From Candidatus Woesearchaeota archaeon (GTDB lineage: Archaea; Nanobdellota; Nanobdellia; Woesearchaeales; GW2011-AR9): 38,963 nucleotides of DNA. The stretch spans positions 1 to 38,963 of the forward strand of contig JACRPH010000076.1 of assembly GCA_016214025.1 (NCBI GenBank), read 5' to 3'. Under the pieces are notes generated by a model. It was given only the letters and a program-made list of their open reading frames with translations. It was not told where the DNA came from and did not search any database. Of the stretch, positions 9,115 through 17,615 are shown piece by piece. The translations under genes were made by a program, and so were the position numbers. Position 1 is the stretch's first letter. The number at the start of each line of letters is the position of its first letter.

Positions 9115-12100
9115 TTAAACAAACGCCCCTAATCCCACCTGTTTATCTTTCTCTTTTCCAAACACGCAATCAGCGTTAAATTTAAGCAGTTCAATTGTCT
9201 GCTTGAGATAAGGAGAAAAGTTATATTTCTGGCACAGCAACAAAGAAGGCCCAAGATATTTTATCACCGAACCTTCAGTTATGGTAAATATTATCTTTCC
9301 GCCACAAGTGGTGCATTTTCCGCATAATGGCGGTCTTCGATACGAAGTGTTGCATTTTACGCATCTAAATTGCTGCATGGAAAATTTTTTCAGATTGCCT
9401 TTGATATCTTTCAGGAAATGTTTTTGAATCACTAATCGAGCTACGTCATCTAAATTTACTGCTCTTACTTTTCGGGCTATTTCCATCTGCCCGATTAATT
9501 TTTCTTCCATTGACGGAAGAATTTTGTAGGCCGAACATTGAACTCCTTTATTGAAATTATCAATGGGATGAGTAAAGCCGAACCCCTCATATTGCGCCGG
9601 AGTGTTTAGTCGGTCTCCTAACTGGGGCATCTTCTTCTGTTCCGGGCCAAATTTAACTTCCCACGGTTTTTTCATTTCCAAAGCAGCTTCGTATAATTCT
9701 AAAGGATACTTCCACGCTACGTCTAATCCGTGTACCTGGTCATCGACTTCGGAAGGATACAATATGCTGGTTAATACTAAAGGGGCATCCATTACTCCTC
9801 CGCGGGTATTGGGCAGGAACTTACGGGAGAAATTAAGCAAAGCGTCCATCAGCAGCATCACGGCAGCTTCATCACCGTCGCATCGTGTGTTGAGTATTTG
9901 CTCCCCCCATAAAACATTTTTGTCTTCTTTATTCTTCCATTCAACCTCAAAACAATAAGAATTAACTTTTCCTTCAATAACTTCTTTCTTTTTAACATAA
10001 TCTATTATAAAATCACCTTTCTCTTCGAGCAAGTATTGTTTTCCGCCAAAATATGTTTTTCTTGGTGAAGTTATTATCCTCAACTGACGCAGGTTTTCTC
10101 GTTTTTTAGGGCTTTCTAAAGTTAAAATTTTCTTTAGAGTATTGACATCTCTCCCAGTGATAACCAAATGATGAAGAATGTGGCTTTGGGGTTGTTTTCC
10201 AAGACGTTTATAAATTTCTAAAACCGCCTTCCCTGGAAATCTTTCAGCAGTGGTTTGATATCTTGAAAAAACATTAAATTTAGTGAAGAGTAATGCGAAA
10301 TCATCCAATAAGCTTCGGTTGACTGAATACAACACTACTGCATTTCGGGGCAAAATTACACTTCCGTCGCCATCTATGAATGCAGAGATATAACCAGATG
10401 TTAAAGACGGAGGAAGATTAAATATCAAAGAAGGAACTCTTTTTTCGTGAGCGTTAGAGCCGGTTTTAAAACAAAATTTAAAGAGAAGATAAACCAACTG
10501 ATCACAGATAGTTATCTTGGTTGAGTTTTCTCCGGTGTTGGGAATTATTCCAAAAGAGGAGGTTATTAAATTTATTATTTTCTTCTGAAGCGCTTTATCA
10601 TCAATTCTAAAACTAACCTGTGAAACTGTTTTTGTTTTCCGAGAATAGCCTTCGGCAGCATAATAACCTAACAAAGGAACAATTCCGCAATCTAAGCGAA
10701 GTGTAGGTTTGAATAAACGATTAGAGAACTTAACTCTTAGCACAGTTTCATTATTGAGAAACTCTGAAGCATTAATTAACCTGCCCCCAATTAAATGTTT
10801 AACATCTAACAATGAAGTTTTTTCATACCATTGGTTTAAATTTTGTTTGTGCCTCTTTTCCGATACAAAATTAATTATTCTACTTCTTCCAGCTGTAACA
10901 ACTAAATGTTTAAAGAATTTTTTATTTACAACATACAGATTAGCAAGTTCTTTGTCAGGGACGTTATCAATGAGAAAAGTGATTAGGTTTAAAGTTAATG
11001 ATGGCGGGGATGAATTATCAAAGTGATTTAATATCGGAACCTTATCTCCTTCGTCAATACGATTAGCTTTCTTAAAGTTAAATGAATTATTGTTGAAATA
11101 CATAAAATCGTGGGTGGGGGTCATCAAGAAAGTTCTATTGGTTGCAGTGGTTATCTTCACCCATTGTTTAGTAACCGGACCTTTTATGAAAAACTTTATT
11201 CTTTTCTTTTTTAGTTTATTGGTAATAGGATCGATGCCAAATGCAAAGATATTTTTATCCTCCAAATCAACTTTTACTGTTCCTACTCCATCAAATACGG
11301 TGGTCCTGGCACCGCCAGCAATTAAATTATCCACTAAATTGCCTATTTGTTCATAAACGAGGTTCCTTTTGTCATTTTCATACACAAATCGGGTGTTGGG
11401 GTGTACGCAGTCCCTTCTCAGCCCGGCATGGAACAAAGGATGGGTTATCAGCCCCTGTGTTTCCGAGAAACCGATTATCCTGCCAATTAAACCAGCAGAG
11501 ATATGCGGAGCCAGGCCAATTACTAAATGGCCAACTAAATCTTCTTCTTTTTTAACTTTGTAAAAAGGCTTCAACCCATAGAACTTTACTAACAGTTCGT
11601 CCAGAAAATTGGCTACCCGGCTTAATACTTTGGGAGCAGATTCATCTAAAGAATCAAATCCGGGTAAAATTATATCTTGGGGCCTTAATTCTAATACTTG
11701 GTCATCGTGCTCTAATTTGTTTCCATAAATATCTTGAGTATATCCTAACTTCCTTAACTTCTCTACCGAGGTTTTAACTTCTTTAGGTTTAAATCCGGTT
11801 AAAGGCAATTCGGTGCAATCATAACGGGTGGTTCCTTCTTTATTTACATAAATATTATGTTTAGCCCGTAATATTCCTTTAGCTAAGTGCTCTACTAAAT
11901 GCTCTTTATTAGAAGTTCCGCGCACACCTTTAATCAGATCAGGATGAACTGTCTCTTTTAATCGGTCTTTGGCTTTATGAAAATAATATTTGATGTCCAC
12001 TTCCATGTTCCGATGCGAATTGGTTGCGCCATGACGGCAGGTCTCTTTATTCACCACCCCGCAAACGCGGCAGTGATAGCGCTTAACACATTTATCCCCG

Positions 12101-14289
12101 CACTCCTCGCAATGGGGATAAACCATTTCTTTCTGGCATGCTTCACAGTAAAACAACGGAAAAGTAGAAGTAACTTTGCCCGCTTCCATCGCTGATTGAA
12201 AACTTCTTAACCGGTCTCCTTCTCCACCCACAGGAAACATCACTTGCGGTGAACCGGTCATCTCGCGCATCTTAGCTTTTTCCGGCCTTCCCATCCTTGC
12301 TCCGATAAAAGTTCCAGCTTTGTCACGCAGAGAAACGGGAGAAAGAGAATTAAGTACTTCCAAACCATCTTTGTCCGCAACCTGTTCTGCTGAAAGGGCT
12401 AATTGCTCTAACTCCAATTGGGTTTTAAAATTAAAACATAACGCTATCGCTTTGGCTTCATTCTCTTCAATGACGATGCTGTCTTTGTTCACTACCAGAT
12501 GCGGCAGCCCCACTAATTCCATCACTCGTTTAGCTTTCAGATGAACTTCTGAGATGGCAGGATAATAAGGAAGCACTATTTTTTTAATTTCCCTCTCCTC
12601 AATTTTTAATTTGCCCTCTTGGAGATATTCGAGCAACAGTTTTATGTCAGTACCAGAAACCAATTTCCAATAATAAAGATACTCTGGATGTAAAGGTGCT
12701 TTTAACACTGAGCTAAGAGAAATGGCTTCTTCAGTGGTGGGAAAGCTCAACAGAGGGGTTTCAATTAATTCTGATAGTCTTTCTGTACTTAATCCCATTT
12801 CCGACGCTGCTTTTTCTACCCCTTTTTCGGCAAAACTGATAGAAAGGGCTTTTTCTACTTCTAATGCCCACCACTCCGAACAATAGCCTGGAGGGACTAA
12901 ATCCTGCCCATTCTCAGAAAAATCTCCATAGTTAAATAGGATATCCCCGAGAAATATAATTTCCTCAACTTCAGAATTACATTTCTTAGCTTCTGCTTCG
13001 GTACGGAGATATAACACTGAACCGTCTTTTAATTTAACGATGGGCCCGTCTAAAGTATCGCATACGGTTATGGTGCCAGCTTTTCCAGGGCGTTCAATCT
13101 TGATCTGGGTTCCGATAGCAATGAATTTGTCTAACACAACCATAGTTGCCGGATGTAATGCCGTAGCTGAAAAACCAGTAGCTCGGGTTCTTCCATATCT
13201 TAATCGCAATCCTCCGGCAGCGAGAGGATGAGTCAATATGGGTCTTCCGGCTACCAAATCCATTAAGAAAGTATTGTTAGGCTGGGGTGTTTTTTTGGTT
13301 TCTTTTATTATGATGGGGGGATCTTTTACTTCGCCAGCTTTTTCCGTAAGTTTAGATGCATGAGCCGCATGAATTTTCTCTTTTAATTTGATAAAATCTT
13401 TCAACCAACCCCATTCTAATCCCAGCTGGGTTCCCCATTTAGACAGTCTCTTCCACAGCTTGGACGATTTCTGACTTAATCCTTCAGCTAAAACTAATGC
13501 TACCCCGCCCCGAATCAGATTAGTTTCAATGCGCGGCAAGTCTTTGTAATTAGATACCTCAATCTTTTCCGTAGGGTCTCCATCAACCTCTACCGGAAGA
13601 TGAGACACCATAAATCGCAGTTCTTCTTCCGAAGGAAAATATTGTAAATTAGTGACCCGCTCATGATAATCCTGAATTTCCATAACACCACGATTAATTT
13701 CCATTTCGGTAGGGTCATAAGTGGCATAACCCATCTTTACCCGCACATAATCACCTAAGATAACTGAAGTTGCCCCGGCAGTTCCTCCTGCAGCCCTGAT
13801 CGGTCCGGCATATTGCAACGCAAAATATTCTTGGCCGTCGCGCCGTTTCTTAATTTTCAGTCCGATGAATCCTTCTAATGGCGCGGAGACGATGCCTAAA
13901 GTAAGATACGCAAATCCCACCCTAATGCCGATTTCCATCGCTTCCTGCTTCGAAGCAAACTTACAGAATTTTTCTTGGGCTACTTCTTCAGCGACGGTAA
14001 AACCAACCCTCCAATCTAACAAGCCGTATTGGGTTTCCAGCTCAATTATGCGTTCAGGAATTCCGGTACTTATTATTTGAGGTGCAATTACTGAAATTAA
14101 TCCCACTACTCTTTCCGCCATATTCTTGGCTAAAGGAATAGAAACTTCTTCTTCAGGGTCGAGGCCTTGGTGCCGGGCGGAGGTGGCAATCTCATAGCAC
14201 TTTTTTACTTCAGCGCTGATTCTATTAAAATAGTCCTGCATTGCCGGAGAGGCAATTTTGTCCAAAGCGGATTGGTTGATGTCGGCCAT
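9115..14289 (-). CDS. polC: DNA polymerase D large subunit DP2 (PolC), intein-containing precursor
   Basis: GPIRAAGGTAGATSV, RTRATGFSATALHPATMVVLDKF, GDEAAVMLLMDALLNFSRKFLPNTRGGVMDAPLVLT, C-terminal Zn motifs; interrupted by an intein. Confidence 0.95.
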   Translation of the reverse strand: MADINQSALDKIASPAMQDYFNRISAEVKKCYEIATSARHQGLDPEEEVSIPLAKNMAERVVGLISVIAPQIISTGIPERIIELETQYGLLDWRVGFTVAEEVAQEKFCKFASKQEAMEIGIRVGFAYLTLGIVSAPLEGFIGLKIKKRRDGQEYFALQYAGPIRAAGGTAGATSVILGDYVRVKMGYATYDPTEMEINRGVMEIQDYHERVTNLQYFPSEEELRFMVSHLPVEVDGDPTEKIEVSNYKDLPRIETNLIRGGVALVLAEGLSQKSSKLWKRLSKWGTQLGLEWGWLKDFIKLKEKIHAAHASKLTEKAGEVKDPPIIIKETKKTPQPNNTFLMDLVAGRPILTHPLAAGGLRLRYGRTRATGFSATALHPATMVVLDKFIAIGTQIKIERPGKAGTITVCDTLDGPIVKLKDGSVLYLRTEAEAKKCNSEVEEIIFLGDILFNYGDFSENGQDLVPPGYCSEWWALEVEKALSISFAEKGVEKAASEMGLSTERLSELIETPLLSFPTTEEAISLSSVLKAPLHPEYLYYWKLVSGTDIKLLLEYLQEGKLKIEEREIKKIVLPYYPAISEVHLKAKRVMELVGLPHLVVNKDSIVIEENEAKAIALCFNFKTQLELEQLALSAEQVADKDGLEVLNSLSPVSLRDKAGTFIGARMGRPEKAKMREMTGSPQVMFPVGGEGDRLRSFQSAMEAGKVTSTFPLFYCEACQKEMVYPHCEECGDKCVKRYHCRVCGVVNKETCRHGATNSHRNMEVDIKYYFHKAKDRLKETVHPDLIKGVRGTSNKEHLVEHLAKGILRAKHNIYVNKEGTTRYDCTELPLTGFKPKEVKTSVEKLRKLGYTQDIYGNKLEHDDQVLELRPQDIILPGFDSLDESAPKVLSRVANFLDELLVKFYGLKPFYKVKKEEDLVGHLVIGLAPHISAGLIGRIIGFSETQGLITHPLFHAGLRRDCVHPNTRFVYENDKRNLVYEQIGNLVDNLIAGGARTTVFDGVGTVKVDLEDKNIFAFGIDPITNKLKKKRIKFFIKGPVTKQWVKITTATNRTFLMTPTHDFMYFNNNSFNFKKANRIDEGDKVPILNHFDNSSPPSLTLNLITFLIDNVPDKELANLYVVNKKFFKHLVVTAGRSRIINFVSEKRHKQNLNQWYEKTSLLDVKHLIGGRLINASEFLNNETVLRVKFSNRLFKPTLRLDCGIVPLLGYYAAEGYSRKTKTVSQVSFRIDDKALQKKIINLITSSFGIIPNTGENSTKITICDQLVYLLFKFCFKTGSNAHEKRVPSLIFNLPPSLTSGYISAFIDGDGSVILPRNAVVLYSVNRSLLDDFALLFTKFNVFSRYQTTAERFPGKAVLEIYKRLGKQPQSHILHHLVITGRDVNTLKKILTLESPKKRENLRQLRIITSPRKTYFGGKQYLLEEKGDFIIDYVKKKEVIEGKVNSYCFEVEWKNKEDKNVLWGEQILNTRCDGDEAAVMLLMDALLNFSRKFLPNTRGGVMDAPLVLTSILYPSEVDDQVHGLDVAWKYPLELYEAALEMKKPWEVKFGPEQKKMPQLGDRLNTPAQYEGFGFTHPIDNFNKGVQCSAYKILPSMEEKLIGQMEIARKVRAVNLDDVARLVIQKHFLKDIKGNLKKFSMQQFRCVKCNTSYRRPPLCGKCTTCGGKIIFTITEGSVIKYLGPSLLLCQKYNFSPYLKQTIELLKFNADCVFGKEKDKQVGLGAFV
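9883..11409 (-). mobile_element. DP2 intein (509 aa) with LAGLIDADG homing endonuclease
   Basis: Inserted between RRD and CDGDEA; begins CVHPNTRF; DOD motifs LLGYYAAEGY and SGYISAFIDGDGSV; ends WGEQILNTR before C. Confidence 0.92.
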
Positions 14290-14318: not shown

Positions 14319-14637
14319 TTACTCTCTACGGTAATACTTCAGTAAAGTGAAGCAGAGAGAGCATCATCAGGTCGAAATCCATTCGATTAATCCTTCAAGA
14401 GCGACAGGGGGACTTGCCCCATACGGGGATGTCGCTCCGGCAATATTCACTGCGAGGATTTCGAAGATGCTCTCTCTGCTTCCCGTGAAGCGTTACCGTC
14501 TTCTCGCCTTTCACTGTATTTATCGAGAGCAGACGTTCCCCGTAGGGGGCATCCCCCTCGTCTGCCAGCAGTAAACTCCGAAGAGGCTCGACTTTATGAC
14601 GGTAACGCTTCATGTTACTGAAGTATTACTCTCTACG
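14319..14637. mobile_element. MITE-like palindromic element with 12-bp flanking direct repeats
   Basis: TTACTCTCTACG at 14319-14330 and 14626-14637; 14-bp inverted repeat TAATACTTCAGTAA (14332-14345)/TTACTGAAGTATTA (14615-14628); internal stems 14349-14365/14466-14482 (17 bp) and 14486-14500/14598-14612 (15 bp). Confidence 0.7.
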
Positions 14638-16366
14638 CAAACCTTAATATCTTGACTTCCCTCGTCTTTAAATTAACAAGAGGCACTCTTCCCGGCTCGG
14701 GCTCATGCCCCATTTTTTCCTGAAATGCGGTTTTAGACTGCCAGCAGCTTCCGCAAATCATAGTAACTCCTTTGTAATGGGCGACTTTGGAATAATGAAT
14801 GTGTCCAGAAACAAGAAAGTCAGGAACTTTTTTTATTAACAGCGGGTCTTCGAGGTGTGCTGGAAAATAAGGCGTAGACTTGAACGTAGGCGCTAAATGC
14901 CGCCGTTTTAATAGGAATTTCATAATTAAATCAGCACGACTGTATCCACCGCCATTTCTGATCGGCTCGACATTAGCTACATAATGATCAAAACTGTAGC
15001 CGTGATACATTAGTACATCAAATCCGGGAAAAGTAGAGGTTTTAGCAATATTAATCAGGGCCGGATTAGTTACTAAAGTTACATTGGGAAGTGCATGTAA
15101 TTCCGGACAATATTCTTTGTAAATAATGGATTGAGGCTCGGCCAGATGAACTAAATCGTGATTTCCTGGGCATAAAATTATCTGTTTGTCGAAGGGTATT
15201 TGGGAGATGATTTTTACAAATTCAAGATACTGGGCTTTGATTTCAGTTATGTCCAATTCTTCTTCCTGTGAAGGATAGATTCCAATTCCATCTACCAAGT
15301 CTCCGGCGATAAAAATATATTTTACTTTGGCGGCAGCTTCTTTCTGGGCTTCGTTACCTGTATTTCCATTCAGCCAGCTCATGAATTTATCCACTTCTTC
15401 GCGCAGGAACATCTTAGAGCCAACATGAAAATCAGATAGAAAAATGGCGGAAACATCCTCGGGGCTTTTTTTCATTTCTTCGGCAGCAGGAATATCCGGC
15501 CATACAATTTTGTCTCCAAAGAGCATATGTTCGCTGCAAGTTCCGGTTATTCCAATAATTTCATCGGGAACTAACTCTTTGGCTCCAGAAAAAAGTTCAG
15601 GTTCGTCTTTTTTAATTAAAACTTTAACTTTACCGGTTAAGTCTTCTAATGAAATCATAATATTCCCGCTTTTAGTTACACCAACCTCTTCCACCATCCC
15701 GATCAAAGAAACATGCTCGCGCTCTTTTTTTCCCTGAATGCGGCTGATAGAAGTAAGATTTTCGGAAAGCGCGGGTTTGTAACGTAGTATTTTTTCTAAA
15801 AAACGATAACGAGAGGTAAAAATAGTAGAAAAATCTTTAACTTCATACTTGTGGGGCTTGTTTTCATAAGAAAGCACGATGTTGATGGTGGTTTTAACGG
15901 AAGTAATTGGCGAAATTGATGAAATGGGAAGAGAAGGAGTTAAAACTGGAGCAGTGATGGAAGAAGTAGTAATGGAAGAAGTAGAAGTATCCACTGATGA
16001 AAAAGTAGAATGAGGCGAAATTAAATTTAGTTCTAATTCTAAGCTCGATTCTTCTTGATGATGGGTTTCATGAGGCGTTATTAAAGATAAAGATGCTTTC
16101 TTCAGGGTTTGCAGCTGGCTTTGGTATAAGTCGTCATCTCGTTCTTTTTCTGCTTCCACTTTATATCGGTCAAGGTCATACCAATCCACTAAAGTCGCTT
16201 GCATAGAAACAATATTAGCATAATCAGAATTAAGTACCATTAAGTCGCTTTCTGCTTCTAATTGATGAAATAATTCAGAACCTACTTCTTTTTCCAGGAT
16301 ATCCTGGCTGGCTAAAATGCCTTTTTCAAACAATTTTTCAATTAATTCTTGTTTAGTTTTGGCCAT
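14633..16366 (-). CDS. polB: DNA polymerase D small subunit DP1 (exonuclease subunit)
   Basis: OB-fold region plus calcineurin-like phosphoesterase motifs LSDFHVGSK, AGDLVDGIG, CPGNHD, SGHIHYSKV; Ser/Thr-rich linker. Confidence 0.93.
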   Translation of the reverse strand: MAKTKQELIEKLFEKGILASQDILEKEVGSELFHQLEAESDLMVLNSDYANIVSMQATLVDWYDLDRYKVEAEKERDDDLYQSQLQTLKKASLSLITPHETHHQEESSLELELNLISPHSTFSSVDTSTSSITTSSITAPVLTPSLPISSISPITSVKTTINIVLSYENKPHKYEVKDFSTIFTSRYRFLEKILRYKPALSENLTSISRIQGKKEREHVSLIGMVEEVGVTKSGNIMISLEDLTGKVKVLIKKDEPELFSGAKELVPDEIIGITGTCSEHMLFGDKIVWPDIPAAEEMKKSPEDVSAIFLSDFHVGSKMFLREEVDKFMSWLNGNTGNEAQKEAAAKVKYIFIAGDLVDGIGIYPSQEEELDITEIKAQYLEFVKIISQIPFDKQIILCPGNHDLVHLAEPQSIIYKEYCPELHALPNVTLVTNPALINIAKTSTFPGFDVLMYHGYSFDHYVANVEPIRNGGGYSRADLIMKFLLKRRHLAPTFKSTPYFPAHLEDPLLIKKVPDFLVSGHIHYSKVAHYKGVTMICGSCWQSKTAFQEKMGHEPEPGRVPLVNLKTREVKILRFA

Positions 16367-16412: not shown

Positions 16413-17615
16413 TTATTGGCTCAAGAGCAACGACTTTTCTAATATTTCTTTGAGCTTGAGCACCAGGCTTTCTTCCAATGAAAGTGAGATCTCCCGAGTG
16501 CGGCCGTATCTTCCTTTAGAGATGATCTTGGCATTGATTACGCCCAACATATCTAATTCAGCTAAAATATCAGAAACACGGCGCTGGGTTAATATGTTAA
16601 ATTTGGTTTTTTGGCATAAGCTTTTGTAAGTTTCGTAGATTTCTCCGGTAAAGAAGTTCTTCTTTTGCGGAGAGAGTAACAGAACTGCATATAACACGCT
16701 TTGGAACTGCTTGGGCTGGTTAGTTACGGCATTTATTATGGTATCAGTTTCCACTTTCTTCTCGGCTTCATCTAGATGAGACATTTCAATAATTTTAGAG
16801 CCGCTTCTTTCAGCTAATTCTCCGGCGATTCTTAATAAGTCAATGGCTCTGCGCGCATCGCCATGGTCCCGAGCAGAATAAGCCGAACATTTTTCGATAA
16901 CTCCTGCTTGGATTACATCAGGAGAAAACGCTTTCTCAGACCTCTTTTTGAGTATATCTTGAATTTGCAGCGCATTATACGGTGGGAAGATTAATTCTTC
17001 TTCAGATAAGCTGCTTTTAACTCGGGGATCAAGATTTTCGACAAAGATTAAATTATTAGAAATACCGATTAAGCATAATTGGGCATTCTTAAGCTCAGAA
17101 TTGATGCGGGTTAAGTTGTATAAAATATCATCTCCCATCTTTTTAGTAAGCTGGTCAATTTCATCTAAAACCAACAAAATTAACTGCTTTTGCTGGTCCA
17201 ACAGCTTGTAAAAGATATTATAAACTTCATCGGTAGGCAATCCCGTAGGCGGAATTTCTTGCCCTAATTCTTTGATAATTTGAGCTATTAGGCGGTATTC
17301 AGTGTCTGCCACCCGTTTTAGCTTGCAGTTGATGTACATCGCTTTCAAAGGAATATTATTAGTTGCAGCCAAATTAACCATGGATTGAAGCACGTGCTTG
17401 ACCGAAAGGGTTTTACCCGTGCCGGTTTTGCCATAAATGAATAAATTAGACGGCTTGTCCATGCGTAAAGCCGGAGCTAGGATATTGGCTACCTCCTGAA
17501 TCTGGCTTTCTCGGTAAAGCACTTCTTCGGGAACATAAGAAGAAAGTAATACTGATTTATCTTGAAATAACGAGTCCTGTTTTAGAAAATTTTCAAAAAA
17601 GTTAGTAATTCCCAT
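16413..17615 (-). CDS. cdc6: Orc1/Cdc6 origin-binding initiator
   Basis: Walker A IYGKTGTGKT, Walker B LLVLDEIDQL, C-terminal winged helix. Confidence 0.95.
   Translation of the reverse strand: MGITNFFENFLKQDSLFQDKSVLLSSYVPEEVLYRESQIQEVANILAPALRMDKPSNLFIYGKTGTGKTLSVKHVLQSMVNLAATNNIPLKAMYINCKLKRVADTEYRLIAQIIKELGQEIPPTGLPTDEVYNIFYKLLDQQKQLILLVLDEIDQLTKKMGDDILYNLTRINSELKNAQLCLIGISNNLIFVENLDPRVKSSLSEEELIFPPYNALQIQDILKKRSEKAFSPDVIQAGVIEKCSAYSARDHGDARRAIDLLRIAGELAERSGSKIIEMSHLDEAEKKVETDTIINAVTNQPKQFQSVLYAVLLLSPQKKNFFTGEIYETYKSLCQKTKFNILTQRRVSDILAELDMLGVINAKIISKGRYGRTREISLSLEESLVLKLKEILEKSLLLSQ

Follow-up and report, generated by a model that had tools for sequence, protein, structure and literature searches.

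The window, by which we mean the whole stretch of 38,963 nucleotides of archaeal DNA analysed here, carries cdc6, dp1 and dp2 on its minus strand, and a short element without genes of its own is found between dp1 and dp2 (Table 1). The right-hand copy of the target-site duplication (TSD) overlaps the dp1 stop codon. The element therefore lies directly behind dp1 and in front of dp2, and both ORFs were left intact by the insertion. The DP2 protein (1724 aa) has an intein with a LAGLIDADG domain (9940-11241 on the minus strand, residues ~1017-1450), the splicing-domain match of which is below the Pfam cut-off.

Table 1. Coordinates of the element, its parts and the neighbouring genes in the window.
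Feature	Position	Strand	Basis or remark
Element, very probably an IS66-end MITE	14331-14629		299 bp; no genes of its own
TSD, distal copy TCTCTACG	14323-14330		8 bp, set from ~40 copies
Left terminal inverted repeat GTAATACTTCAG, IS66-type end 'TIR1'	14331-14342	+	same end type around the IS66 transposase in L308
Right terminal inverted repeat	14618-14629	-	end comparison and comparison of ~40 copies
TSD, copy over the dp1 stop codon	14630-14637		TAG on the minus strand, at 14633-14635
Hairpin module B, AGCATC-T-TCGAAATCC ... GGATTTCGA-CCTGAT-GATGCT	14360-14471	-	covariance model R1, 123 bits (the window copy is itself included in R1); 36-copy alignment
Apical motif of module B, conserved, TCCCCGTATGGGGCAAGTCCCCC on the minus strand	14407-14429	-	alignment
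Hairpin module A, diverged homologue of B, inverted	14492-14606	+	29-copy alignment
Apical motif of module A, conserved, TTCCCCGTAGGGGGCATCCCCCTC	14536-14559	+	alignment
dp1, PolD small subunit	14633-16366	-	Pfam; ORF end inside the right TSD, frame intact
dp2, PolD large subunit with intein	9115-14289	-	Pfam; start 41 bp from the element
cdc6	16413-17615	-	Pfam

The initial annotation had described 12-bp direct repeats, inverted ends and internal stems of 17 and 15 bp, and all of these are present where it placed them. The direct repeat TTACTCTCTACG occupies 14319-14330 and 14626-14637, the inverted ends extend over 23 nt with 91% identity and are perfect in the outer 15 nt (GTAATACTTCAGTAA), and the perfect stems lie within I2 (17 bp, 14349/14482) and at 14486-14500/14598-14612 (15 bp). 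As a duplication, however, only 8 of the 12 bp stand. Comparison of about 40 copies gives a true TSD of 8 bp (TCTCTACG, 14323-14330 and 14630-14637), since on the right TTAC forms the end of the element, and on the left it is a chance match of four bases in the target. The element thus has a terminal inverted repeat of 12-15 bp and a target duplication, as expected of a MITE, and it is short (299 bp) and has no transposase gene. Its longest ORFs, of 72 and 75 aa, gave no Pfam match, in agreement with the earlier view that it holds no convincing ORF.

The element is multicopy, a point on which the initial annotation had proposed to test the mobile-element reading. In the genome of the window (G000; 1.43 Mb in 85 contigs, 97% complete) BLAST gives 16 matches to it, including two further full-length composites (contigs C75 and C77), while the partial matches are mostly to a sub-module of about 112 bp. 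Among G000 and its relatives, 26 of 96 genomes have matches. The 12-bp end GTAATACTTCAG (TIR1) was found in 20 of the 49 genomes of the family, at up to 31 sites per genome, and a reversed-sequence control for this search was near zero. About 40 distinct paired-end elements, of 28 to 521 bp, are flanked by 8-bp TSDs whose two copies differ at one position at most. The 28-bp remnants (L070 and L123, seen by eye, and L211) are the two ends alone and look like deletions between TGAAG repeats.

TIR1 elements can also hold unrelated palindromic interiors, both in Woesearchaeota and in Planctomycetota. The planctomycete mini-elements L161, L181, L195, L217, L148 and L150, for example, have TIR1 ends around other palindromic interiors, such as those of the CACGGATGAACACGGA or CGCAAGCGGGAATCC types, and the IS66 ends seem to pack whichever hairpin repeat is common locally. 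The tandem TIR1 elements L020 and L119 (G011) have one common 8-bp target, and in L020 this target, GTTTTTGA, is present three times around the tandem pair; the arrangement resembles repeated insertion at the same target. In L017 (~540-670) a short hairpin repeat, TAAGTTTGCTACCGCAAACCAAACTCGACTGCGGTCTCC, forms a tandem array adjoining a TIR1 element. When viral contigs were scanned with the TIR pattern 18 stretches matched, and these were included with the other loci in the search for TIR pairs. Many contigs break ~70-100 bp into an element, close to the apical hairpin of the module (for example C42, C18, C50 and C102, at ~1-99, in G001, and C4, C9 and C12 in G052). Copies of the element thus fragment metagenome assemblies of these archaea, which affects genome reconstruction.

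A site without the element is found in the sister species (G001, DP1 89% identical), where the dp1-dp2 spacer lacks both the window element and the repeat TTACTCTCTACG, though another element is nearby. This is a different element of the same super-family, with TTTGTTTAGC ends, and it is likewise just behind the dp1 stop codon. The dp1-dp2 spacer is short in most other relatives and 178-192 bp long in three, again without the window element. Two independent insertions into one short spacer are notable, but on a rough copy-number estimate the chance of this is a few per cent, and we therefore place little weight on the coincidence. More generally, in 24 co-directional spacers the elements lie a median of 19.5 bp from the upstream stop codon versus 54.5 bp to the next start. 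Their mean fractional position of 0.26 was reached under a uniform null in 0 of 100000 draws, in statistics that depend on crude gene calls and in which a tandem pair in L098 makes up three of the 24 rows. This clustering behind the upstream stop may reflect a target preference or selection sparing the start of the next gene.

Three types of end recur, TIR1, TIR2 (GTATTTGTTTAGC) and TIR3 (GTATGTGCATAGC), and for each of them an IS66 transposase (PF03050) is found within matching ends. In Woesearchaeota there are autonomous TIR2 elements (L295, 1594 bp, with the exact TSD ACAAAAAT, and L196 in the sister species G001) and autonomous TIR3 elements (L307, 1535 bp, with the exact TSD GAGGGTGG, and L290). 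The matching transposase for the window end GTAAYACTTCAG, for which the initial annotation had proposed to look, lies in the planctomycete element L308 (1541 bp, TSD lost), the only one in which TIR1-type ends (GTAACACTTCAG) surround an IS66 transposase; the same genome also has TIR1 mini-elements. Neither G000 nor 96 relatives yielded an autonomous TIR1 element, and none turned up among TIR pairs up to 5 kb apart in the collected loci. G000 has two intact IS66 genes with other ends, which are GTAAGTAATAAGTCA in L292 and less clear in L303. An IS66 partner with the same ends was thus not found in the same genome, although with 97% completeness in 85 contigs an autonomous copy may have been missed. 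Mobilisation by IS66 in trans is therefore something that we infer, though strongly.

Repeats of 8 bp have been reported for IS66 (PMC3281130), as have ends that begin GTAA (PMC12888890), and the window element has an 8-bp TSD and ends starting GTA(A). The reading as a non-autonomous mobile element is upheld by the multiple copies, the 8-bp TSDs, the sister species without the element at this site and the IS66 transposases with matching ends elsewhere, and we consider it very probable that the window element is a non-autonomous MITE with IS66-type ends. An IS66-family DDE transposase would act in trans on the GTAATACTTCAG ends and integrate the element, duplicating 8 bp of the target; in the window the insertion fell on the dp1 stop codon and spared both genes. 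No hairpin module was recognised inside the IS66 elements, which argues against the MITE having arisen from one of them simply by internal deletion.

The interior of the element consists of two diverged copies, A and B, of one hairpin module of ~112 bp, in inverted order. Copies of B are also picked up by a profile of A, and in the same orientation, which shows the two to be homologous. Elements with a single module are common. An asymmetric loop, T/TTC against CYTKAT, is conserved, as is the apical motif TCCCCGTAGGGGGCATCCCCC, in which the purine tract seems by eye to covary with both pyrimidine tracts. Of 371 genomes of the phylum, 57 have matches to the covariance model of B, often at least 10 each, and nearly all of these genomes belong to one order; G000 has at least 14 copies of the module. 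Of 67 full modules, B accounts for 14 in TIR1, 15 in TIR2 and 3 in TIR3 elements, A for 21 in TIR1 and 2 in TIR2 elements and one in a GGCTCTGTCC-ended element, and 11, several of them at contig ends, were not assigned to an end type. Around the matches to the model of B there are further IS66 types of end. The module is thus hosted by at least three IS66 end types and by a GGCT-type end with 9-bp duplications; for GGCTNNGTNN-type ends the duplications taaattata, atttttgac and tctttcacc were seen by eye. For the GGCT-type ends the search gave no autonomous element, and the 9-bp TSDs make another transposase likely. The presence of one structured interior in elements with different ends and TSDs suggests that it is common to users of different transposases. 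In our preferred reading, the same module would have been packaged repeatedly between the ends of different transposons.

Some further features of the modules were noted. The GGCTNNGT-ended elements L344, L346, L348, L009 and L345 have a second conserved asymmetric part, with a left arm of about TCTCRCTTCGTTCGGG and a right arm of about AACCTACTTTTT. Additional hairpins of 40-90 bp, without obvious target duplication, are nested in modules, often in loops (L025, L087, L107, L108, L109, L120 and L122). In module B, likenesses to a hammerhead (CTGATGA, GAAA) and to a K-turn (box C) were set aside, since neither occurs in module A and the strand order does not fit, and a resemblance to a tRNA T-arm (TTCGAAATCC) was dropped because it is not in module A. 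The likeness of the TIR to the CRESS-virus nonanucleotide is regarded as a coincidence, since the ends are accounted for by the TSDs and a DDE transposase.

The initial annotation suggested that the element, transcribed within the operon, could act as an attenuator or processing site. Its strong predicted fold (z = -10.0 for the plus and -9.0 for the minus strand, against 100 dinucleotide shuffles), the compensatory changes in the stems and the frequent position of copies right after a stop codon in co-directional spacers are all consistent with the module being a structured RNA, with the element transcribed in operons as an attenuator, processing site or small RNA. Both sides have changed in 23 of 31 pairs across 34 B modules (shuffled mean 11.6), 97.6% of cells are paired, and sliding the pairing partner abolishes the covariation signal. 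Double changes between copies are ~4 to 9 times as frequent as single changes once the unpaired parts differ by more than 20%. Selection on RNA is expected to leave G.U intermediates on the transcribed strand. In the pooled stems of A and B (1408 cells), however, there are 1369 Watson-Crick pairs, 8 G.T, 12 A.C and 19 others, so that G.T makes up 0.6% of cells and is no commoner than A.C, compared with 8% G.U in the tRNAs of the same loci, a small control (n = 8). The module has the same orientation as co-directional genes in 10 cases and the opposite in 12, without transcription bias, the longest T-run in the element on either strand is 3, and there was no match to an Rfam covariance model. 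Neither the tolerance of G.U nor the strand bias of an RNA-level role was thus seen in these stems. A structured RNA is in our view improbable, and the short T-runs, the balanced orientation and the lack of a G.U excess speak against an attenuator or processing site, though the element may have an incidental effect on the dp1-dp2 transcript. Covariation alone is no proof of a functional RNA, as these strongly covarying stems are almost without wobble intermediates.

Together, the near-pure Watson-Crick covariation, the absence of orientation bias and the conserved asymmetric loops point to a hairpin at the DNA level rather than an RNA attenuator, and we think it somewhat probable that the module has its role there. 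Template switching makes and maintains the perfect stems of quasi-palindromes (PMC8794818). The module would act as a DNA hairpin or cruciform, and its arms may stay complementary through palindrome-directed template-switch correction, selection for folding or both. Pure correction should erase the asymmetric loop and TCCCCGTAGGGGGCATCCCCC, and we therefore invoke selection to keep them. The conservation of loop and apex suggests that they are bound by something, probably a protein. A DNA-level process that combines template-switch correction with selection on loop and apex appears the likeliest, and the stems of the module form a set of natural cases on which palindrome correction through template switching could be tested.

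We tentatively suggest that in the ~112-bp module Woesearchaeota have a folded-DNA unit, selfish or used by the host, in which the stem sequence is free while an asymmetric internal loop and a C/G-tract apex are fixed, and which a putative protein recognises. This unit may have been packaged again and again between ends that belong to unrelated transposases, and it would then be the passenger, not the ends, that is conserved. Plain shared descent differs from our preferred reading only in the history of the module: a single ancestral IS66 MITE would have carried it and the ends would have drifted with their diverging transposases, with no repeated packaging. TIR2 and TIR3 are similar, have the same junction with the module and match diverged IS66 elements, all of which fits such a history. 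TIR1 elements, however, join the module via different variable stems, carry A and B together and allow unrelated interiors, and the GGCT-type ends with their 9-bp TSDs point to another transposase, so that we regard shared descent as doubtful. It is very unlikely that the system is REPIN/RAYT-like, with a Y1 (HUH) transposase moving the hairpin modules and the IS66 ends being secondary. The two inverted modules, with their variable stems and conserved loops, do look like a REP doublet, and REPINs and BIMEs with RAYT transposases (PMC2817692, PMC3116915) likewise consist of imperfect hairpins that are paired in inverted orientation and have parts of their loops conserved. The window element differs from them in being flanked by TIRs and an 8-bp TSD, which are of the DDE type, and G000, with its many module copies, has no match to the Y1 transposase family (PF01797), nor have the module-rich genomes G018, G015, G022, G028 and G052.

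Among known systems, the window element resembles IS66 insertion sequences and their non-autonomous derivatives in its 8-bp TSD, its GTA(A) start and its autonomous relatives with matching ends, but it has no transposase inside and its interior is not derived from IS66. In archaea, the IS66 elements that we saw are short (~1.5-1.6 kb), with a single transposase gene. The window element, from a woesearchaeote, is of a kind known in general from bacteria and archaea; our search of the open-access literature turned up no account of woesearchaeotal MITEs or of archaeal ones with IS66 ends. In integron attC sites the DNA is folded, the sequence of the stems is free and asymmetric unpaired bases are conserved. 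The module is like them in all three respects, but no attC core sites or gene cassettes were seen, and integration is via TSD-making ends. MITEs are usually described as internal-deletion derivatives of one IS. With prokaryotic MITEs such as QMITE2 of Coxiella and MITECca01 of Cardinium (PMC10969869, PMC9769881) the window element has in common a TIR, a TSD, multiple copies, a stable stem-loop and the lack of an ORF, while it differs from them in that its interior is a conserved covarying module common to MITEs with different ends and two classes of TSD length. A structured passenger of this sort, common to MITEs of different ends, departs from the usual description of a MITE.
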